A stretch of DNA of 44,999 nt, from positions 1 to 44,999 of the forward strand of contig REAR01000090.1 of assembly GCA_004295245.1 (NCBI GenBank). The letters are read 5' to 3'. This DNA is from Sphingobacteriales bacterium (GTDB lineage Bacteria > Bacteroidota > Bacteroidia > Chitinophagales > Chitinophagaceae). A program made the position numbers and the translations under genes. Below, in pieces: positions 842-15,840 of this stretch. Numbering within the stretch: position 1 is the first letter of the stretch; the number at the start of each line of letters is the position of its first letter. Below the pieces are notes generated by a model. The model did not search any database and was not told the origin of the DNA. It was given only the letters and a program-made list of their open reading frames with translations.

Positions 842-1906
842 GTGCAGGCTGCTTTGCTTACCTATTTACGTTGCCCGGTTACCCGCAGTGCGTTGCGCCT
901 GCAACCCATTAGCTCTTGCGTAAAAGTATATAACGGTCAGGGCCGCACCATACAGTGGCAGGCTATTTTATGGGCCGATGAAGATTGGTTTTACCCGGTT
1001 ATTAATGGCATACCCCGCTTAACCGTGGAGGCGTTTATTGACTATGACGAATTTTTAAAATCGCATATTGAAGATTATGCCCAGCGCCGCTCGTTTATAG
1101 AACAAAAATATCCGGGTCTGCTGGCCTATGTGCTTAAAAAAAATAAACGCACCAAACAGAGCTTTGCGCAGGAGTGGGGCCTTTTTAACTACGAAGAAGA
1201 TAAAGTGTGGGATGCGGGTAAAGCCGGTATGCTGCAACGTTTTTTACGGGAGACGGCAGAGACGCCACAATCTCTAAACGGTAAACTTATTTTTGATGCC
1301 GGCTGCGGCAATGGATTATTAAACCAACTGGTGTCAGCAGAAGGTGCTACCATATTGGGTATGGATTTTAGCAATAGCATTGAACGGGCTTTTGATAAAA
1401 ACGAGGAAGAGAATGCTTTGTTTATACAGGGCGATGTGCAGTTTCCGCCCGTGGCTTTTGAAGTGTTTGATATTGTGCATAGCAGTGGCGTTTTAATTTG
1501 CACCAATAATACAGAGCTGTCGTTTAGCTGCATCAGCCCCTGTGTAAAGGCAGGGGGCAAGCTGAGTGTGTGGCTTTACCACCCACGAAAAGATGCTATA
1601 CACAACCTCTTTAATTTTATACGCCGCTTTACCAGCAAACTGCCAGTGAAGCTGCAATACTATTTATACAAGTTTACGCTCTTACCCATCAGCTATATTA
1701 TTAAACGCATAAAGGGCAATAAACAAAACCCCCGCGAAATGATGATTGATATACTGGACTGGTTTTCTCCTGAGTTCAGGTGGGAGCATACACACGATGA
1801 GGCAAAAGCATGGTTTTATAAACGCGGCTTTGCCAATACGGCTATTACCACCAACGAAGTGTTTGGTTTTAATATTACCGGTGTTAAAACTGCTGCTGAT
1901 AAATAG
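842..1906 (+). CDS. class I SAM-dependent methyltransferase with Trm112-like N-terminus
   Basis: 354 residues. The N-terminal ~65 residues (YLRCPVTRSALRL ... NGIPRL) resemble the Trm112/YcaR-like small domain often fused to methyltransferases of surface glycan loci. The Rossmann methyltransferase core follows: motif I FDAGCGNGLL at ~151-160, acidic motif GMDFS at ~173-177, GDVQFPP at ~197, and DIVHSSGVL at ~210. It should transfer a methyl group from S-adenosylmethionine; the substrate cannot be read from the sequence. It starts with GTG. It follows the ACBP gene closely, and its 3' end overlaps the convergent glycosyltransferase gene by 23 bases. A role in modifying a lipid or glycan is inference from context only. 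Confidence 0.82.
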   Translation: MQAALLTYLRCPVTRSALRLQPISSCVKVYNGQGRTIQWQAILWADEDWFYPVINGIPRLTVEAFIDYDEFLKSHIEDYAQRRSFIEQKYPGLLAYVLKKNKRTKQSFAQEWGLFNYEEDKVWDAGKAGMLQRFLRETAETPQSLNGKLIFDAGCGNGLLNQLVSAEGATILGMDFSNSIERAFDKNEEENALFIQGDVQFPPVAFEVFDIVHSSGVLICTNNTELSFSCISPCVKAGGKLSVWLYHPRKDAIHNLFNFIRRFTSKLPVKLQYYLYKFTLLPISYIIKRIKGNKQNPREMMIDILDWFSPEFRWEHTHDEAKAWFYKRGFANTAITTNEVFGFNITGVKTAADK

Positions 1907-3044
1907 CTGTTAACTGCTGCGCCACTACCGGGTAACTGAATTTTTCTTTTGTAATAGCGGCAATATTATTTTTATTAAATGCCTGCGGATGGTTTTTTAG
2001 TTGCAACATTGCATGGGCTAAAGCAGGGGCATTGTAATTTTCTACCACCAGGCCTGTGCTATTGGGCACTACTGTTTCTTCAAACACTTTATAGTTGCTT
2101 ACAATAACGGGCAGCCCGCAAGCCTGCGCTTCTATTACTACAATGCCAAAACTTTCGTAGCGGCTGCAGAGTAGTAATGCGTTTGCCTGTTGCAGTGCTT
2201 TGCTTAATTGCTGGTGCGTAGCTTCTGCATAAAAATGTACTGCGTTTGCTATATGCAGTTGCTGGCACAGGGCTTTTAATGCTGGCCGCTGCGGGCCATA
2301 TAAATGCAATACCATGCTGTTGTTTTGCTGGTATGCAATGGCAAAGGCTTCTAATAACAGTTCGGGGTTCTTGGGGTAATCCAGCGAGGAAATATGGATG
2401 TAATGAAACCGGCCATCATTTGCAGTAGCAGCAGGGTAGAAGCTATCGGTATCTACCACATTGGGTACTACTATGGCGTTACGGTTAAACCATTGTTTTA
2501 AATAAGTAGCCAGGTGCGCCGATACACTCACCACTGCTTTGGCTTCTTTGTACACTTTTTTATACAGCCATTTATTAATAAAGTTGGTGCTGCGGTAATT
2601 GGGGTTGGCCTCTGGTAAAAACCAGCCATTGCGTTCTACAATAATAAAGGGCAGTTTAAATTTTTGTTTAGCCCATACGGCAGGCAGTCCAGCTTTCATG
2701 GCCACGTTTACCTGTATGCCGTTGGGCAAACCATTTTCTGCAATATGCTTTTTTATTTGCTGTATAAACAGTTTATAATACTGTATGGTGGAATATGTTT
2801 TTGCTACCAGCACCCCCCATTTGGCGGGCACCCCATAATACAGTTTTATAATTTCTAAATTGGGGTGTGGCTGTTCTGTAACGGTTTCTGTTTTACCTGC
2901 GGGCAGGTTGGGGTCTTTCTTTACAAACAGCAGGGTAATTTTACTAAGTGCAGCAGCAGCAAGGGCCAGCCGCTCTATCGGGTCGCCCTCAAAAGCATTA
3001 AGGCGGTTAGGAAACCAACTGCATAACCAAAGTACTTTTTTCAT
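1884..3044 (-). CDS. glycosyltransferase family 4 (GT-B fold)
   Basis: 386 residues. The N-terminus MKKVLWLCSWFPNRLNAFEGD is typical of GT4 enzymes, which carry a Ser-Trp-P(N/S) loop and a GD(F/P)xx segment. The C-terminal donor-binding domain has the E-x7-E signature at E297 and E305 (RYESFGIVVIEAQACGLPVIVS region) and an ISSLDYPKNPELLLEAF segment at ~218-233. These enzymes move a sugar from a nucleotide donor onto a growing glycan at the inner membrane. A polysaccharide flippase gene starts just upstream on the same strand with a ~29 base spacer, so an operon for a surface polysaccharide or glycolipid is likely (inference). Confidence 0.9.
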   Translation of the reverse strand: MKKVLWLCSWFPNRLNAFEGDPIERLALAAAALSKITLLFVKKDPNLPAGKTETVTEQPHPNLEIIKLYYGVPAKWGVLVAKTYSTIQYYKLFIQQIKKHIAENGLPNGIQVNVAMKAGLPAVWAKQKFKLPFIIVERNGWFLPEANPNYRSTNFINKWLYKKVYKEAKAVVSVSAHLATYLKQWFNRNAIVVPNVVDTDSFYPAATANDGRFHYIHISSLDYPKNPELLLEAFAIAYQQNNSMVLHLYGPQRPALKALCQQLHIANAVHFYAEATHQQLSKALQQANALLLCSRYESFGIVVIEAQACGLPVIVSNYKVFEETVVPNSTGLVVENYNAPALAHAMLQLKNHPQAFNKNNIAAITKEKFSYPVVAQQLTAIYQQQF

Positions 3045-3073
3045 GTAGTGCTGCTGTGTGCCGGCAAATATCT

Positions 3074-4381
3074 TTACTTATTTGGTGGCAGCAATAGTTT
3101 TTTAATTTCTGTAAAAGAAAACTGTCGGTTATAAAAAAAGCTGCCAATACCGGTGGCGTATTTTTTATTAAACTGCAACAACAGATAACCCATGTATAAC
3201 AGATAGCCCACACTGCTTACTGCTGCTGCTGCTGCAATGCCATAAACGGGTATCAGCCACCAATCGCCCAGCACTATTATTACCAATGCCAGTATGCCGC
3301 CTGTTAAATTATGCTTCACCAAATTTAAACCTGCAAAATGCGCCGCCACCACCCGCACCACTGTTAATGCTAATATGCCCGGTATTAATAAAACAAATGG
3401 GGTGTACATATTATTAAAGCTGCTGCCAAACACCCATACAAATAACCAGTGGCCGCTTACTGCCAGCATTGCACAGCCCAAAACACACAACCAAAAAAGA
3501 TAGAAAGCCAGTTTTTTTACCGGCTGGTGCAGGGCTTGCTGGTTGGCATTGGCCGTTTCCGGAAAAACAGCACCGGCCATAATAGTGGGCAATAATAATA
3601 ACAGTTGCGCCAGTTTAGAAGCTTGTATATAATTACCCAAATCTTCTGCAGCACAAACGGTGCAGGTTTTTTTTACCAGCCAATAATCTATTCTATAAAG
3701 TAAAAAGAAAACAATATTAGTAACCAGCGATAACATGGAGTAGTTTACCAACAGCCGCAATTCTGTTGCTGTAGGTAATTGCATTTTTTCTGCCAGGCGG
3801 TTGCTGCGCAAAAAAGCCATGCTTAACAAAACCCCTTGCACCAAAAAATTTATAAAATATACTTTTAATGCAAGCGCTGGTGCATTACCGGCGCCTTTGC
3901 TAAACAAAAGCACAATAACAACACTGGTAATTATATTGGCAACACTCATAATGCCATTGGGCAACTGATAGTTTTGCTGTGTATAAAACAACGCACAAAA
4001 ATAGTTGGTTAAAATAAGTCCGGTGGTATAGGTTAGTGCAAACAGTATAAACTCCTTTTTACTGTAAGGGGCAGCATCATTTACATAAAACAACCACAAC
4101 AGGCCTACAATAAGCAGTGCTGCCACTGCCGACCATATTAAACTAAGCGTTGCCAGTTTGTTGCGACTGATTTTTTTTTGAGCAGCATAATACGTCATGC
4201 CACTTTCTAAACTTAAACTGGCCAGCAGCAGAATAAAAGAAAAATAATTTGATATATAGTAAATCCAACCCGTGGCAGCAGCCTCGTAGTAGCGGGATAC
4301 AATAATGTTCAACAGCAGTACCGTAAAAAAATAAATGCCTCTCCACAGTAAACTGCTAAATAGTACCTGTTTAAATTTCAT
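3074..4381 (-). CDS. polysaccharide / lipid-linked oligosaccharide flippase (Wzx/MATE-like)
   Basis: 435 residues, almost entirely hydrophobic, with about 12-14 predicted membrane segments starting at residue ~10 (LLWRGIYFFTVLLLNIIVSRYY). The length, helix pattern and basic start MKFKQ fit the MOP superfamily polysaccharide transporters (Wzx, PST), which flip lipid-linked glycan units across the inner membrane. It is the first gene of a two-gene minus-strand unit with the GT4 glycosyltransferase. The region upstream is shared divergently with the potassium-channel gene and contains a palindromic repeat. Assignment rests on topology and neighbour rather than a sharp motif. Confidence 0.82.
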   Translation of the reverse strand: MKFKQVLFSSLLWRGIYFFTVLLLNIIVSRYYEAAATGWIYYISNYFSFILLLASLSLESGMTYYAAQKKISRNKLATLSLIWSAVAALLIVGLLWLFYVNDAAPYSKKEFILFALTYTTGLILTNYFCALFYTQQNYQLPNGIMSVANIITSVVIVLLFSKGAGNAPALALKVYFINFLVQGVLLSMAFLRSNRLAEKMQLPTATELRLLVNYSMLSLVTNIVFFLLYRIDYWLVKKTCTVCAAEDLGNYIQASKLAQLLLLLPTIMAGAVFPETANANQQALHQPVKKLAFYLFWLCVLGCAMLAVSGHWLFVWVFGSSFNNMYTPFVLLIPGILALTVVRVVAAHFAGLNLVKHNLTGGILALVIIVLGDWWLIPVYGIAAAAAVSSVGYLLYMGYLLLQFNKKYATGIGSFFYNRQFSFTEIKKLLLPPNK

Positions 4382-10200: not shown

Positions 10201-10238
10201 ATGGTTCGTTGAGACACGAACCATGGCGTTGGTTGGGC
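10201..10238 (-). repeat. degenerate terminal cassette-site remnant with 9-bp hairpin
   Basis: A perfect 9-base stem, ATGGTTCGT (10201-10209) with ACGAACCAT (10216-10224) and a 6-base loop, is followed by GTTGGGC at 10232-10238, which has the form of an integron outer box (GTTRRRY). It lies just downstream of the last island gene. The left half of a full element is not recognisable. The hairpin might also serve as a transcription terminator, though no T-tract follows. Confidence 0.4.
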
Positions 10239-10262
10239 CTTGTCAAAAGTGTAATGAAAAGT

Positions 10263-11522
10263 TTACCTGAGTTTTTCGTCTAACTTACTTTGTTCAAGAA
10301 ATTTTTTATAGTCTTTGATGTGCAACATTTCGTAAATAGCTTTTTTCTTGTCTTTCGCTTGCTCATAGTATGCTTTACAAATTTGGTAACCAACCCAATA
10401 ACCCAAATCAGAAGGCTTATCGAAATCTTTTTGTTCACCGTTTCCAATCCAGTTATATGCTCTATTTAAATACATTTCTTTTTTAAAATCTGCCCAAATT
10501 TCCTTTTCTTTCCCCTTTCCGTAAATTAAAAGACTTTCATTAGCTGATTTCCCTGAAATTAATTCCCCAATAAAATCCGCCATACCTTCTAAAATTGCAC
10601 CTTTTAAAAGTGTTGTATCTGAAGCCATTCCATCCTGTTGAAAATGTATCAATTCGTGAGCCACTGTATAGGGAAGGTTTTCAAACGTGCTAATATTTGC
10701 TTTTTCCCAATGGCTAAGTTCAGTCGTATCTGCACTTGGTGACATAACTGCTTGGTCTATTCCAAGTATTAAACCTTCACTTGAGGTTGTTCCAGCTGAA
10801 CGTAATTTTCCTATTACAAAATAAACTGGTGGAAAAATTGCTTGAGGATAAATTTGTTTAAGCTTTACAAAAGACTTTTGATAAATTGATTTTAGTTGCC
10901 CTGCCTTTAAAGTATTTTTTCTAATTGTTGCATAATATCTTTTACGAATATTGTGCATATAGACAAAGTTATTGATGTTGTAAATTTTATTGATGTAGTA
11001 ATATTGCAGTGCCATTGTGCCCTTATTTATATAGTTATCCATATAAATTTTTTCAGCATTTAAAGAGTCTTTTTCTACTAAATCATATGCTTTCCAAAAA
11101 TTACGAACATCAATATCTATAATTTTCAATTTATTTGGGTCGGTGGTATAAGTCGGTTTTATAAATTTGATTATTTTTTTCCACCTATTGCTAGATTTCA
11201 TAAATTCATAAGAATTATCATTTTTTAAAGATGGAAGATCGTTAAAACCTAATTTATATACCGCTAATTCAAGGCATCTAAAACTGTTTGTACTGTCTTT
11301 TGCACTTGCATAAGCACTTGCCGCATATGAGTAGTTTGTATTTTTTGATAATTTATTTTCTACAAGTAAAGCACCTTGCTCCCAAAGCGATGCAGCTTTG
11401 TCAAAATCTTTTTGTTTGTAAAATTTATTTCCAAGTCTCATTAAACTATCAACAGACGATTGCGAAAATGAGATATTAAAAATAAATAAAAATGCAAGTC
11501 CAAAGGAAATTTTAAATTTCAT
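10263..11522 (-). CDS. secreted TPR/DUF2268-like predicted zinc protease
   Basis: 419 residues when started at the ATG at 11522, which puts a signal peptide first (MKFKISFGLAFLFIFNISFS). One or two TPR-like helices follow (SLMRLGNKFYKQKDFDKAASLWEQGA). Near residue 289 the chain has AHELIHFQ, an HExxH zinc-binding motif, and ~19 residues on EGMADFIGE supplies a third ligand at E312, the arrangement of DUF2268/gluzincin-type proteins. An exported or periplasmic metalloprotease is likely, but its substrate is unknown. It is the last gene of the cassette-like array and lies between a full element (11564-11753) and a degenerate one. It is A/T-rich compared with genes outside the island. Confidence 0.7.
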   Translation of the reverse strand: MKFKISFGLAFLFIFNISFSQSSVDSLMRLGNKFYKQKDFDKAASLWEQGALLVENKLSKNTNYSYAASAYASAKDSTNSFRCLELAVYKLGFNDLPSLKNDNSYEFMKSSNRWKKIIKFIKPTYTTDPNKLKIIDIDVRNFWKAYDLVEKDSLNAEKIYMDNYINKGTMALQYYYINKIYNINNFVYMHNIRKRYYATIRKNTLKAGQLKSIYQKSFVKLKQIYPQAIFPPVYFVIGKLRSAGTTSSEGLILGIDQAVMSPSADTTELSHWEKANISTFENLPYTVAHELIHFQQDGMASDTTLLKGAILEGMADFIGELISGKSANESLLIYGKGKEKEIWADFKKEMYLNRAYNWIGNGEQKDFDKPSDLGYWVGYQICKAYYEQAKDKKKAIYEMLHIKDYKKFLEQSKLDEKLR

Positions 11523-11563
11523 ATTTTTATAGTTAGCAAAATTGTAAATTGGTTTCAAAAAAT

Positions 11564-11753
11564 GGCCTACGAGGGTTTTATGCAGATTTGGAATTAGAAA
11601 TTCGTCTGCCGATAACCGCTGCTGATTGAAAATATGTTGATGAAGTTAAGTACAAAAGTTGATAGATATTCGTCGGCTGGAACTGAAGCTTGGATTTGCT
11701 ATTAGCTGATGTTAAAATGTCATGCCCAACTTGCATAAAACCCAATGTTAGGC
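11564..11753 (-). repeat. attC-like intergenic element B
   Basis: The inner arms GGGTTTTATGCA (11573-11584) and TGCATAAAACCC (11732-11743) are perfect 12-base inverted repeats. The outer box on one side is GTTAGGC (11747-11753) and on the other GGCCTAC (11564-11570). Inside is a local hairpin GCAGA / TCTGC, then AACCGCTGCTGAT and TAGCTGATGTTAAAATGTCA, blocks shared with elements D and E. At 190 bases it is at the long end for an attC site. Confidence 0.65.
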
Positions 11754-11763
11754 ACAGTGTTTC

Positions 11764-12519
11764 TCACCAACGCTTTCGTTTCTCTGTCACAACAACTAAA
11801 TACTTTTTGTCAAGGTTATTGTTAATGTACGAAACAGCACTCATAATCATTCCGTAATGATTCATTGAGTTTTCTCTTTTGCTATCTTCAATCCATTGCT
11901 CATATTTCAAATCAAGTTCGTCAATAGTTATACAAGATTGTATAAAATTAGTTAAGTCATAAACTTCTCTGTCGCTATTTGAAACTAACTCTGTCAAACT
12001 GATTGGCTGCTTAAAAATTAATGACAACATACGAGCAAGGTCGTCTTGGTTTTCTGCATATGTTGTTTCAAATCCTTGTTCGTCAATGTCAGTAACAAAC
12101 GCCTTAATAAATTTTTCTTCGTCTAATAAAATGTTTGTGTCAATTGTGTTTGTCGCTACAAAATATACGTCCATAAACAAGTCAGCTAAATTCTCAAGAA
12201 GAGATACCGTCACAGTCTCTACTTGCTGGCTATTGGGAATTTCAGAACCTTCAATGTTATGATTAGTTGTCCATTGTCGCCCTAAAAACCTGCCCAATTT
12301 TTGAACAGCTTCATCTAATTCTTCACCATTGTTTAGCCTTTTGGTTAAGTCCTGCACTAACGGCTTAGTTCGTCTATTGAAGTCCAAAAGATATTTTGGT
12401 TGTCCGCTTTCAAAAACTATCCACTCGTCAATTGAAAGTTCGTAAAAGGGAATTGCTCTGAATTGTCCACCAGAGTTTTGAAATAAATATGATTCTGTCT
12501 GTAAGGTAACGGTCTCCAT
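11764..12519 (-). CDS. uncharacterised cassette-borne protein
   Basis: 251 residues; I do not recognise the family. It has no signal peptide and no membrane segment; it is acidic and mainly helical by appearance (LLENLADLFMDVYF, DEEKFIKAFVTDI, YDLTNFIQSCITIDELDLKYEQWIEDSKRE), ending in the basic tail VTEKRKRW. Likely a soluble cytoplasmic protein. The start codon lies 9 bases from the box GCCTAAC at 12528-12534, and the stop lies 10 bases from the box at 11747-11753. Both flanks carry the same boundary sequence, GTTAGGCACA(A/G)TGTT, in inverted orientation. That makes this the cleanest cassette-like unit in the window. Confidence 0.75.
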   Translation of the reverse strand: METVTLQTESYLFQNSGGQFRAIPFYELSIDEWIVFESGQPKYLLDFNRRTKPLVQDLTKRLNNGEELDEAVQKLGRFLGRQWTTNHNIEGSEIPNSQQVETVTVSLLENLADLFMDVYFVATNTIDTNILLDEEKFIKAFVTDIDEQGFETTYAENQDDLARMLSLIFKQPISLTELVSNSDREVYDLTNFIQSCITIDELDLKYEQWIEDSKRENSMNHYGMIMSAVSYINNNLDKKYLVVVTEKRKRW

Positions 12520-12527
12520 AACATTGT

Positions 12528-12631
12528 GCCTAACGTTCGAGTATTGCTGCAGTTGGGGAATTAACCAACTGTCTGCCCGGAACTGAAGCTAAATTTATAA
12601 ACAAAAGTTCATTATTTTTCCATTGCTGCAG
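12528..12631 (-). repeat. attC-like half element C (right half missing)
   Basis: The outer box GCCTAAC (12528-12534) is followed by TTCGAG, the arm GTATTGCTGCAG (12541-12552), a local hairpin AGTTGG / CCAACT (12551-12570), and CTGCCCGGAACTGAAGCT, all matching the left half of element E. The expected complementary arm TGCAGCAATAC is absent to the right. Instead ATTGCTGCAG recurs directly at 12622-12631. Confidence 0.55.
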
Positions 12632-12640
12632 AGTCCTCGG

Positions 12641-12718
12641 CTAATCTGCAAAGCCCTTTTGAGAAACGCTGCGAGGAAATAAAAGCAACAAAAGGGTAGC
12701 TGATAAAAGCTTTTTCAT
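12641..12718 (-). pseudogene. signal-peptide remnant of a lost cassette gene
   Basis: A 25-codon frame begins MKKLLSATLLLLLFPRSVSQ and stops six codons later. It looks like the N-terminal signal peptide of an exported protein: a KK start, a Leu-rich core and a plausible cleavage site. It lies between the 3' end of one island gene and half element C. Loss of the body of a cassette gene together with its upstream site by deletion would explain both the orphan signal peptide and the missing half site. Confidence 0.45.
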
Positions 12719-12750
12719 GTAGGTAAAATTTATTTTAAATAGTTGATATT

Positions 12751-13512
12751 TTATTTTGATGCTTTCCACAAATTATACTTCTTTATCACATCCAATAAGA
12801 GGTCGGTCTTTTTCAGGGTTTTAATAAATTCATCTTCTAACTCCAAATATTTTAATGCTTCTGCAAATTTCATTTTCAAAGGGTACTGGTCAGAAATATA
12901 AATATAGCCTTTGGTTGGATGTTTGAAAATAATATCTCTCTTAGTTGCATCCTTGTAATATTCTTTTTTAATAGCTGGTATACCGGGGTCAGGACGGTTG
13001 TCCCAACTCTGTTTAAGCAATTCAACTTCCTGAAACAATGAATAAATTTTAAAATATCCGGTAATGCTGTTTAGTATAAAGTAAACGCCATCAGGTACAA
13101 CATCACCCGTTGCCGGTATTAAGTAGAGTTGTTTATTTTCCGATACATCCCATACAATAAAGTCATACTGATGCTCTTCGTAGAAGAATCCAAATCCCTT
13201 TATTTTGAGTCGGTCAATTTTTTTAAATTTTCCTTCGGTTTCAGCGAATTTAAAGTCAAAAGTGAGTTTGCTGTAATTAATTTTTTTTGATTCTTTAATT
13301 GAATCATTGAATAAGGGGTCTGCTTCAATTTTGGGTGCTTGTCCCATTCCTGTACGGGATGAACCGACAATTAGAAGATTACGTTTTGTTGGAATCTCAA
13401 TCTTTCCTCTTACTGTATCCCCGGACTTATTGATGTAATATCCATTTGCTTCTTGCCCATATAAGCAGACACTTGAAAATATAATAAGGGCAATTAACGC
13501 TATCTTTTTCAT
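12751..13512 (-). CDS. uncharacterised exported protein
   Basis: 253 residues from the ATG at 13512, chosen because it places a signal peptide first (MKKIALIALIIFSSVCLYGQ). The mature part starts EANGYYINKSGDTVRGKIEIPTKR, a pattern common in Bacteroidota secreted proteins of unknown role in which a short beta-rich segment names the 'GYYINKSGDTVRGKI' strand pair. The rest is mixed beta/helix, with basic-acidic clusters near the end. I cannot assign a function. It is preceded by element D. The element that should follow it appears deleted, so its cassette may be fixed in place. Confidence 0.7.
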   Translation of the reverse strand: MKKIALIALIIFSSVCLYGQEANGYYINKSGDTVRGKIEIPTKRNLLIVGSSRTGMGQAPKIEADPLFNDSIKESKKINYSKLTFDFKFAETEGKFKKIDRLKIKGFGFFYEEHQYDFIVWDVSENKQLYLIPATGDVVPDGVYFILNSITGYFKIYSLFQEVELLKQSWDNRPDPGIPAIKKEYYKDATKRDIIFKHPTKGYIYISDQYPLKMKFAEALKYLELEDEFIKTLKKTDLLLDVIKKYNLWKASK

Positions 13513-13544
13513 ACTGAAAATGAAATTAATGATTTTATAATGCC

Positions 13545-13740
13545 GCAAAACATTCGAGTATTTTCGAAGGCTGAGAACTCATTGATTGTTCAGCCCGGTA
13601 CAAATACCCAATTAAAAATATGTTCTTGAAGTTATGAACTAAAGCTGAATATAGGACGTCGAGCCTGAACCGCTGCTGATATTTGCACATAGCTGATGTT
13701 TCATTGTCCAGCCCTGCTTTTGCAAATACTTTTATTAGCG
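13545..13740 (-). repeat. attC-like intergenic element D
   Basis: The left arm at 13558-13573 (GTATTTTCGAAGGCTG) pairs imperfectly with the right arm at 13709-13729, which ends TGCAAATAC. A local hairpin GGCTGA / TCAGCC (13569-13595) is followed by CCGG. The interior shares GAACCGCTGCTGATA and TAGCTGATGTTTCATTGTC with elements B and E. The right outer box ATTAGCG (13734-13740) leads to GGTAGTG, which matches the boundary on the other side of the HNH-like gene. Confidence 0.6.
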
Positions 13741-13748
13741 GTAGTGTT

Positions 13749-14810
13749 TTATTTCACTTTTTTATAGATTTCTAAATAGTCTCTTGAATAATTAAGCAAA
13801 GTTCTTTTAACCTCATAATAGTTATTCGTTTGCTCTTCGCTTAATAAACTTGTATCAGTTCTATATTTATTTAAGAGTTCCATTTGAAGTTCAATTGTCG
13901 GCTCAACAATTTTTACTGGTGCACCATTTTTTATTTTTTCTTTCATAGAAAAATTTACTTCTTCATCTTTTTCCATCGAATAGAGTAAATTGTCATGCTC
14001 TAGAAATATTTTGCCAATTCCACTTTCTATGTCGTAGGAATTTTCTTTCACATATTCGTTGTCATAAAACTCAGGAAGAATGCCTTTTCCTTGTTTATAA
14101 ATAGGCTGCATGATTTTAATATGTGGTTCTGATATTTTTGTGTTAAATAATCTCCTATTAAATTTTTTACTTGCTGGACCAATTAAATAATCTGTCATGC
14201 CATTATTGGGTTGTAGTTGACAAATTTTGGGAAACGGAAATCCTAAATGTTCAGATACAATAAACTCATAGGACACATTTAATAGTAGTAAATTATTTAT
14301 TTGAAGACTTAGGCATGTTGGACTATATATGAAGCATGGTGAATTTGCACCAATCCAAGTTAATCCCTTATGATTATTATACAAATTCGTGATTGCAAGA
14401 AATCTATCTTTAAGTCCTACTCTTTGATTGATAAAGAATTTGGGTTCAATTTGGAAATGCCCTTTATTAAGATAATTGACAGCAAGCCAAATGCCAATTC
14501 TGATTTTATCTAACCAATCAAGAAAAAGATTTATTTGTTCGTAATTCAAATACTCGTCAACCAGTAATCTTTCAACAATTACTTTAACTTTAGATTCTAC
14601 TTCAGCAAATTTACTGTTACATGTCTCACAAGCTGGAAATGTAAAAGATGAAATATTAAATTCTATTTGTTGTTGCGTTTTCCAGTTGTAACCAAGGTTG
14701 ACAGTCCTAAATTCATCACCTGTCAATTTGAGAAGCCACTTTGGTAAAACATGCTCCTTGTTTTTGTCTGTTGGAGGGTTGCCGCAAAAAATACACTTCT
14801 TGCTAATCAT
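13749..14810 (-). CDS. HNH-endonuclease-like zinc protein
   Basis: 353 residues. The N-terminus has C6-x2-C9, then KEHVLPKWLL with H20, then PACETCNSKFAE with C61 and C64. Two CxxC pairs around an (E)H(V/I)(L/I)P motif are the plan of zinc-stabilised HNH nuclease domains, with H20 at the catalytic position. The remaining ~280 residues have no motif I recognise and may hold a partner or sensing domain. It could be a nuclease of a defence or mobile element, but nuclease activity is only inferred. It sits between elements D and E, and both flanks carry TTAGCGGTA(A/G)TG in inverted orientation, so it forms a complete cassette-like unit. Confidence 0.65.
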   Translation of the reverse strand: MISKKCIFCGNPPTDKNKEHVLPKWLLKLTGDEFRTVNLGYNWKTQQQIEFNISSFTFPACETCNSKFAEVESKVKVIVERLLVDEYLNYEQINLFLDWLDKIRIGIWLAVNYLNKGHFQIEPKFFINQRVGLKDRFLAITNLYNNHKGLTWIGANSPCFIYSPTCLSLQINNLLLLNVSYEFIVSEHLGFPFPKICQLQPNNGMTDYLIGPASKKFNRRLFNTKISEPHIKIMQPIYKQGKGILPEFYDNEYVKENSYDIESGIGKIFLEHDNLLYSMEKDEEVNFSMKEKIKNGAPVKIVEPTIELQMELLNKYRTDTSLLSEEQTNNYYEVKRTLLNYSRDYLEIYKKVK

Positions 14811-14828
14811 GATGTCAATTCACATTAC

Positions 14829-15028
14829 CGCTAACGAACAGGTATTGCTGCAGGTGTGGAATTCATTGAATGTCCTGCCCGGAACTGCTGCTCAATAAAG
14901 ATTTAAAAGTACAAGATAAAAACTAAAAGCCCAACAGAATTCCGTCGGCCGAAACCGCTGCTGATAGAGAACTATAGCCGAAGGTTACAACGTCAAGCCA
15001 GACTTGCAGCAATACCCATGTTGGTGGC
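14829..15028 (-). repeat. attC-like intergenic element E
   Basis: The inner arms GGTATTGCTGCA (14841-14852) and TGCAGCAATACC (15005-15016) are perfect inverted repeats. The outer boxes are CGCTAAC (14829-14835) and GTTGGTGGC (15020-15028). The interior has CCTGCCCGGAACTGCTGCT, GAAACCGCTGCTGATA and CGTCAAGCCAGACTTGCA, paralleling elements B, C and D. Beyond the perfect arms the pairing continues imperfectly with unpaired bases, as in attC sites. Length is 200 bases. Confidence 0.65.
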
Positions 15029-15030
15029 AG

Positions 15031-15666
15031 TTATTTCTTTTTCCAACTCAGAATAATTTCAGTGATTAATAAAGGTATTGCCCAACAAAGCCAAATTATT
15101 GTAAGACCTCTTTCTTTGAACTCTGGTATTATTGATTTTACAAAAACCGAATTATTGAAAATACGGAAAAAGAAAAATCCAAGTGTGACAACATAGCTTC
15201 TAATCATCCATTCTTTGTGTTGGATTATGCGTCCTCTCCTTACGAAAATATAAGCCATCAAAGCTGTCGAAATCCAAGCAAATGCTAATGCTTGTAAACC
15301 AAAAGCCCATGAAAAACTTATCTTATATCCACTTGTCCAAGCTAAATTAGTTGCAGAGATTGTACCTAACAAAATTGCTATTAGATATACACGTCCAAGA
15401 AATCTGTGTGTTTTGATATATTTTCCTCTAAATGTTTTCCAAAATTGGAATGGGCCAATTATCATGGCAATAAGTCCACATGAAATATGAAAAAACAATG
15501 GAATTTTATAATCCCAAAACCTGCCGTAACTTTCTTTATTAAGAATTAAATAAGGTAGAATCTCTTGAAAAGTAATTACACCTATGTAGAGAACTAGAAT
15601 TAATGTAAAACCAAATTTCAAATATGATTTTGGTTTAAGCTTATTTAAAGCACTAAGTTTTTCCAT
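15031..15666 (-). CDS. DUF2306 family membrane protein
   Basis: 211 residues with about six or seven membrane helices. The DUF2306 pattern is visible: FFHISCGLIAMIIGPFQFWKTFRGK, then THRFLGRVYLIAILLGTISA, then a late HKEWMIRSYVVTLGFFFFRI. The conserved histidines (FFH, THR, QHKEW) could bind a cofactor, as in cytochrome-like membrane proteins, but no function is established. It is the first gene of the array in transcriptional order. Both flanks carry GTTGGTGGCA(A/G)TTAT as inverted copies, so the gene forms a cassette-like unit bounded by elements E and F. Confidence 0.82.
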   Translation of the reverse strand: MEKLSALNKLKPKSYLKFGFTLILVLYIGVITFQEILPYLILNKESYGRFWDYKIPLFFHISCGLIAMIIGPFQFWKTFRGKYIKTHRFLGRVYLIAILLGTISATNLAWTSGYKISFSWAFGLQALAFAWISTALMAYIFVRRGRIIQHKEWMIRSYVVTLGFFFFRIFNNSVFVKSIIPEFKERGLTIIWLCWAIPLLITEIILSWKKK

Positions 15667-15705
15667 TGTTAATTCTTGGTTTGTTAATTTGTCTGCGTTA
15701 TAATT

Positions 15706-15840
15706 GCCACCAACGATTGTATTGCCGCAATATACGCAGCTTTTTTAGCCAGCGACAATTTTTTTAAAAAATTATGATTCAATTATTTACGCAAAAAAGC
15801 GTAAGTTTTTTAGTTTGTTTTTAGTGCGGCAATACAATTG
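15706..15840 (-). repeat. leading-end element F of the island with perfect 13-bp arms
   Basis: TTGTATTGCCGCA (15717-15729) and TGCGGCAATACAA (15825-15837) are perfect inverted arms, and the outer box GCCACCAAC is at 15706-15714. At ~135 bases it is shorter than elements B, D and E and lacks their shared centre. Inside is a second hairpin, TTACGC / GCGTAA (15787-15804), next to a T-run. It marks the upstream limit of the island and could be an attachment site or a divergent cassette site. The whole 510-base gap 15667-16176 holds only this element, a short hairpin, a dispersed repeat and a terminator. Confidence 0.5.

Follow-up and report, generated by a model that had tools for sequence, protein, structure and literature searches.

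A probable orphan cassette array of an integron-like gene-capture system in a Sphingobacteriales genome

Genes, sites and boxes of the array

The window analysed here, a stretch of 44,999 nt from a Sphingobacteriales bacterium (assembly GCA_004295245.1, contig REAR01000090.1, contig C189 of a 3.37-Mb, 96% complete assembly), contains five co-directional single-gene cassettes on the minus strand between positions 10234 and 15743. Very probably this is an orphan array, in part decayed, that belongs to an integron-like gene-capture system widespread in Bacteroidota. Sites were scored with a covariance model (R1) built from 25 aligned sites of ~200 nt, including sites A, C and D of the window, and with a second model (R2) of a ~138-nt site form. 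Isolated weak matches to either model, below about 30 bits, were excluded as evidence of their own. The covariance search showed six R1 sites in the genome, four in the window array and two on contig C54. In the order of the minus strand, the array consists of the following features.

15712-15743, minus strand: attI-like site at the head of the array, AAGCTGCGTATATTGCGGCAATACAATC followed directly by GTTGG, with the GCGTATATT core and GTT spacing as in relatives (loci L207, L208 and L211)
15700-15714, minus strand: R''-like box of cassette 5, from sequence; partner at 15020-15034
15031-15666, minus strand: cassette gene 5, DUF2306 membrane protein (Pfam PF10067, E 2.7e-28)
15020-15034, minus strand: R'-like box of cassette 5, pairing with 15700-15714 (inverted repeat I1)
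14826-15029, minus strand: site D of cassette 5, attC-like, ~200 nt (R1 210.7 bits, E 9.6e-46)
14822-14835, minus strand: R''-like box of cassette 4, from sequence; partner at 13734-13747
13749-14810, minus strand: cassette gene 4, matching no Pfam family
13734-13747, minus strand: R'-like box of cassette 4, from sequence; partner at 14822-14835
13542-13743, minus strand: site C of cassette 4 (R1 143.6 bits)
12751-13548, minus strand: cassette gene 3, matching no Pfam family
12525-12667, minus strand: site B of cassette 3, damaged (R1 53.9 bits over 143 nt only)
12520-12534, minus strand: R''-like box of cassette 2, AACATTGTGCCTAAC; partner at 11747-11761
11764-12519, minus strand: cassette gene 2, matching no Pfam family
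11747-11761, minus strand: R'-like box of cassette 2, GTTAGGCACAGTGTT; partner at 12520-12534
11561-11756, minus strand: site A of cassette 2 (R1 133.1 bits)
10263-11558, minus strand: cassette gene 1, predicted Zn protease, DUF2268/GldB-like (Pfam PF25594 7.2e-13, PF10026 5.8e-9)
10234-10241, minus strand: R'-like box GGCCCAAC of cassette 1, end of the array; the expected site after the box is missing

The original prediction, made from the sequence alone, placed five genes on one strand, which was confirmed, and the sequence blocks that it quoted are present. Elements of 190-200 bases, which it described between the genes, were found only in part. Of the four sites, A, C and D have the full length of ~200 nt, and site B is truncated toward gene 3 (12751-13548), its end next to that gene being lost. 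At the left end R1 gave no match after the box GGCCCAAC. The right-end element (about 15700-15840), which reads GCGTATATTGCGGCAATACAATC followed by GTTGG on the minus strand, is best read as an attI-like sequence rather than an attC-like site, because its core and GTT spacing match the sequences between recombinase and first cassette in relatives. The outer GTT/AAC boxes that were thought to close each element were not recovered as such; instead, long complementary boxes flank the genes, with one gene each between TTAGGCAC and GTGCCTAA, TTAGCGGTA and TACCGCTAA, and TTGGTGGCA and TGCCACCAA. In cassette 3 the box ATGCCGCAAAAC at 13542 has no partner in the window sequence, and no recombinase remnant was found within the window.

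Pairing of cassette ends and anatomy of the sites

An integron cassette starts with an R'' box and ends with an R' box and the remainder of the attC site, and R'' and R' meet only in the circle. Pairing of the two boxes across cassettes was run as a prediction test separate from the model, which had not been required to fit the boxes. With a criterion of at least 6 of 7 variable positions, the boxes paired in 52 of 60 cassettes in 16 arrays, compared to a mean of 7.9 and a maximum of 17 in 5000 partner shuffles. The two boxes of one and the same element paired in only 13 of 75. In G302, an independent genome outside R1 model building, 43 of 58 cassettes paired (shuffle maximum 17) and the longest open reading frame had its site on the 3' side in 55 of 58; 40 distinct boxes were present among the 58 cassettes, and their orientation was uniform, head to tail. 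The complementary boxes belong to the genes and not to the elements, and the two ends of a cassette pair in the way known from an integron cassette closed into a circle. A short cassette, with about 260 nt from site to site and an identical box, GTTACATGTA, was also seen in four to five copies in one array (L168 14674-17196 and L169 3637-5085).

Alignment of the 25 elements showed an invariant AACG/TGTT box pair, an unpaired spacer of 4 nt on one side and 2 nt on the other, a stem and a centre of ~150 nt. The stem has 16 pairs (GG.TTG...), 12 of which were altered on both sides. Standard pairs made up 94.2% compared to 73.5% after shuffling, and the 110 double-changed cells (42.7 when shuffled) were reached in none of 500 shuffles. 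Pairing fell to 36-48% once the stem partner was slid by 1-3 columns, and covariation was 0.517, against 0.173 in shuffles and no more than 0.115 after sliding. A similar stem is carried by the ~138-nt form. The sites are conserved in fold rather than in sequence, as integron sites are.

On the plus strand, which is complementary to the genes, two stem pairs were G.T in 25 of 25 and 23 of 25 sites and would be C.A mismatches on the gene strand; in site D the G.T pairs were located on the plus strand as well. These near-invariant pairs suggest a signal that could set strand choice, an asymmetry equivalent to that of classical attC sites, where extrahelical bases restrict recombination to the bottom strand. 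In the array context site D folded weakly (z -1.6). Restoring each cassette's own box to its site in genome G163 moved the mean z from -2.3 to -4.2; the folding energies are convincing only because of this restoration and are weak evidence alone. The centre of the ~200-nt site also carries repeated motifs (GTCCAGCCCGGAACNGCTGC; alignment A2 columns 45-70, 118-143 and 170-178; site D 14871-15000) and looks as if it had arisen by duplication within a shorter site.

Array heads, recombinases and distribution

In G163, 25 sites extended over 18 kb on a single strand, beginning 1 kb past a tyrosine recombinase of 385 amino acids, and the sequence from the recombinase stop to the first cassette was TTATTGCGTATATTTATT followed by GTTGCC. 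Many related recombinases were followed after the stop codon by GCGTATATTTAMGT and GTT, or by GCGTATATT, ~15 nt and GTT. Among loci centred on the recombinase, 123 of 130 sites were downstream with co-directional cassettes, wholly so in 25 of 30 loci; phylum-wide, 21 of 26 were co-directional and 4 divergent. Most of the exceptions showed the divergent arrangement of classical integrons. Matches to the IntI model TIGR02249 at plain E-value were uninformative, since XerC and XerD give matches in every genome. With matches better than 1e-23, 36 of 57 site-bearing genomes of the bacterium's own family were positive compared to 0 of 28 site-free genomes; the genomes of both groups are related and not independent, so that P values overstate the association and are indicative only. 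In the bacterium's own 96% complete assembly the array recombinase was absent. Its two recombinases of the family were both Xer-like, which makes the array an orphan, as had been proposed, and leaves no IntI-type recombinase of the kind that was expected elsewhere in this genome.

Two observations concern neighbouring genes in relatives. A gene for an SSB-like single-strand-binding protein (MKGLNKVMLIGNLGKDPEV...) stands immediately 3' of the recombinase in three genomes (loci L217, L221 and L222), which hints at single-strand work. Arrays of genome G274 also contain another, unlike tyrosine recombinase accompanied by site-like repeats of ~94 nt (L166 3233-4805 and L167 7640-8425), in one intact and one frameshifted copy.

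The elements were found around other genes in related genomes, as anticipated, with R1 sites in 112 of 299 genomes of the order and R2 sites in 171 of 395 genomes of the phylum (95 of 171 genera). G302 alone had 119 R1 sites in a 7.3-Mb genome, distributed over numerous contigs (e.g. L360 and L362-L367), among them several short ones that break off within arrays. On a plasmid of Chryseobacterium sp. SNU WT5, a recombinase from the same clade was followed downstream by six R2 sites, all of them on one strand. On plasmids of Rufibacter tibetensis (L427 16129-21385) and Pontibacter kalidii (L429 16126-21184), small hypothetical genes stood in runs downstream of a related recombinase, with sites of ~65-100 nt, much nearer to classical attC length, and the same gene-specific boxes by eye. 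A DNA similarity search of site D against plasmids found nothing, and viral contigs showed related recombinases only (33-51% identity). A scan of contigs with a 15-base pattern was too unspecific, with matches scattered across all phyla; five Bacteroidota loci from it had no sites when re-searched with the models.

Integrons are considered rare in Bacteroidetes, where, apart from a complete one in Salinibacter ruber, IntegronFinder 2.0 reported only integrases that lack cassettes (PMC9024848); here about 40% of the sampled phylum genomes carry one site family. No earlier description of the system was found in the open-access literature; a description elsewhere is possible.

By sequence and fold, the closest matches of the array recombinase were XerA/XerC/XerD-like proteins (NF040815, 4a8e, 5hxy). 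It differs from XerC/XerD in its extra N-terminal domain, in its separation from the genomes' own XerC/D in the tree and in its link to arrays rather than dif. A full-length structure search returned the common tyrosine recombinase fold only. The N-terminal ~80 residues were predicted with a mean local confidence (predicted local distance difference test, pLDDT) of 94.5, and Pfam HARP matched 2 of 7 members (7e-5). In Foldseek the top hit of this domain was SMARCAL1 HARP (probability 0.82, E 0.17), and VIA-align gave modest Z scores, 6.3 for the XPB damage-recognition domain and 4.3 for HARP. These weak sequence and fold matches, to eukaryotic and archaeal helicases at modest Z scores of 4-6, are only suggestive of a HARP-like domain.

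A classical integron array (cluster of attC sites lacking integron-integrases, CALIN), with an ordinary IntI from elsewhere acting on its attC sites, follows the same logic of cassettes, GTT/AAC R boxes, attI and hairpin sites, and the array recombinases share with IntI (TIGR02249; 2a3v) a tyrosine recombinase core and the C-terminal ending SPLDxL. In the trees, which have long branches and midpoint rooting, all array recombinases grouped in a single clade, separate from the Xer proteins of the genomes, and one true IntI adjoined this clade, placing them on the IntI side. A common cassette-moving ancestor with IntI or a separate origin may explain this, both being compatible with the trees. 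However, an ordinary IntI is very improbable here. Within the order, the IntI cut-off was passed by a single genome out of 299, and that genome had no R1 or R2 sites, compared to the 112 with sites. The array recombinase scored 189.1 bits against a cut-off of 265, its TIGR02249 match broke at 179-240, and it has 18 residues where IntI4 (2a3v) has 61, so that 43 residues of the IntI-specific (I2) region are missing. By its sequence, the recombinase that heads the arrays is not an IntI, because it falls below the IntI cut-off and lacks the IntI-specific insert. This insertion is considered essential for integron function, though incompletely conserved in the group, in a classification of tyrosine recombinases (PMC8138268), and the additional domain was taken as defining in a study of archaeal integrons (PMC9668308). 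The sites of 135-215 nt with spacers of 4-5 and 2-3 nt are also unlike classical attC sites. Of the two wordings in the original prediction, an array moved by an integrase from elsewhere and a related system of single-strand recombination, the second fits better.

The system resembles chromosomal (sedentary) integrons in its one-direction, one-gene cassettes with the site 3', R''/R' pairing within the cassette, attI head, G/TT crossover and large arrays. It differs from them in a recombinase without the I2 insert or a match to the IntI model and with a HARP-like N-terminal domain, in the usually co-directional and upstream position of the recombinase, and in its sites, most of which measure ~138 or ~200 nt and have shorter spacers.

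Cassette movement, mechanism and the tet(X3) unit

In genome G272 a cassette of 1577 bp was present twice with 100% identity, at attI and in the array interior with different neighbours; the identity starts at GTT and ends just past GTT. A 478-bp cassette of G274 was likewise found at attI and inside an array, and a 475-bp cassette of G163 was copied at separate positions. Excised cassettes inserted at attI would leave such identical copies behind, and these footprints support movement. Retention of the five genes in one order by all related strains, which the original prediction had named as contrary to a cassette array, was not seen: two congeners retain the flanking M1-peptidase gene with the array missing beside it, and the R1 search of their assemblies (85% complete) gave no sites. 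The expected integron-like behaviour was borne out in gene-specific paired cassette ends, covarying stems, one-directional single-gene cassettes, array heads with recombinase and attI in relatives, and cassettes that recur unchanged at attI and deeper in the array.

Structured RNAs (3' untranslated regions, terminators or processing elements) copied between genes would explain the uniform transcribed orientation and the covarying stems. An mRNA 3' element would not need boxes that pair across the gene, however, and whole cassettes are repeated with GTT breakpoints and one copy at attI, the arrays are headed by a tyrosine recombinase, and no window element matched an Rfam model at gathering score, which makes this explanation very improbable. 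Clustered miniature transposons, inverted repeat-flanked units served by an unrelated transposase, can be dismissed almost entirely, since an inverted repeat does flank each gene and such clusters are common but the terminal repeats vary by cassette (the 40 distinct boxes among 58) in a single head-to-tail orientation, the common site occurs once per unit and on just one of its sides, and the breakpoints compared between duplicate cassettes showed no target-site duplications.

For the integron-like array, the minus-strand order is an attI-like site and then five cassettes, each a gene with its attC-like site. A tyrosine recombinase would cut at G/TT of the box heading each cassette. The cassette would then leave as a circle, in which the two gene-specific boxes join into one stem and complete the site. 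The single strand, presumably the plus (bottom) strand, would fold to a hairpin with the box stem, a short unpaired spacer, a stem of ~15 bp and a centre of 100-150 nt, and the folded site would be recombined into attI or another site. In the bacterium's own genome the array is probably inert or served in trans, because the recombinase that heads arrays in relatives is absent from the assembly.

Several results weigh against this interpretation. Pairing was poor in 8 of 60 and 15 of 58 cassettes, from sites missed in between or from decay. Folding separated the strands poorly (mean z -4.2 compared to -3.8), and about 20 of 57 site-bearing family genomes had no recombinase above the Xer background. 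No excised-circle or empty-attI sequences were found.

It is possible, if somewhat short of probable, that the system is a second, separately evolved kind of integron that recombines folded single strands without the I2 helix, using a HARP-like fork- or hairpin-binding domain instead, and that it forms a phylum-wide reservoir from which mobilised tet(X) came. According to PMC7790495, IntI owes its single-strand ability to the I2 helix. If the array recombinase acts on folded single strands, it does so in the absence of this helix, and the arrays would represent a natural second experiment on the long-standing question of the transition from double- to single-strand recombinase.

Homologues of the recombinase on Acinetobacter plasmids adjoin tet(X3). 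On Acinetobacter baylyi plasmid pJAT2044 (L432, NZ_CP104735.1, positions 1552-3702), a truncated recombinase was followed by ATATACGCCATTTGGCGTATAGCCACTT joined to GTTATGTGCC, tet(X3) and a partial ~138-nt site (R2 35.6 bits, E 4.5e-8). The recombinase gene beside tet(X3) has been named xerD and mobility credited to ISCR2 (PMC7530245); this protein fell in the array-recombinase clade with support of 97/96. The xerD-tet(X)-res-ISCR2 module thus resembles the array system in its recombinase clade, the attI-like sequence before tet(X3) and the partial site after it, and differs in an N-terminally truncated recombinase, a single cassette and mobilisation by ISCR2; an integron-like nature was not described in PMC7530245. 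This anatomy, in the one plasmid studied in detail, suggests that tet(X3) was a cassette of the Bacteroidota array system that was later moved by ISCR2. The arrays are also a large store of accessory genes still to be read, and the layout around tet(X3) suggests that one or more resistance genes of importance came from there.

Finally, a perfect hairpin, ATGGTTCGT-TGAGAC-ACGAACCAT, was identified at 10203-10226 of the window, directly outside the distal end of the array; it is unrelated to the sites and is perhaps a terminator-like or repeat element.

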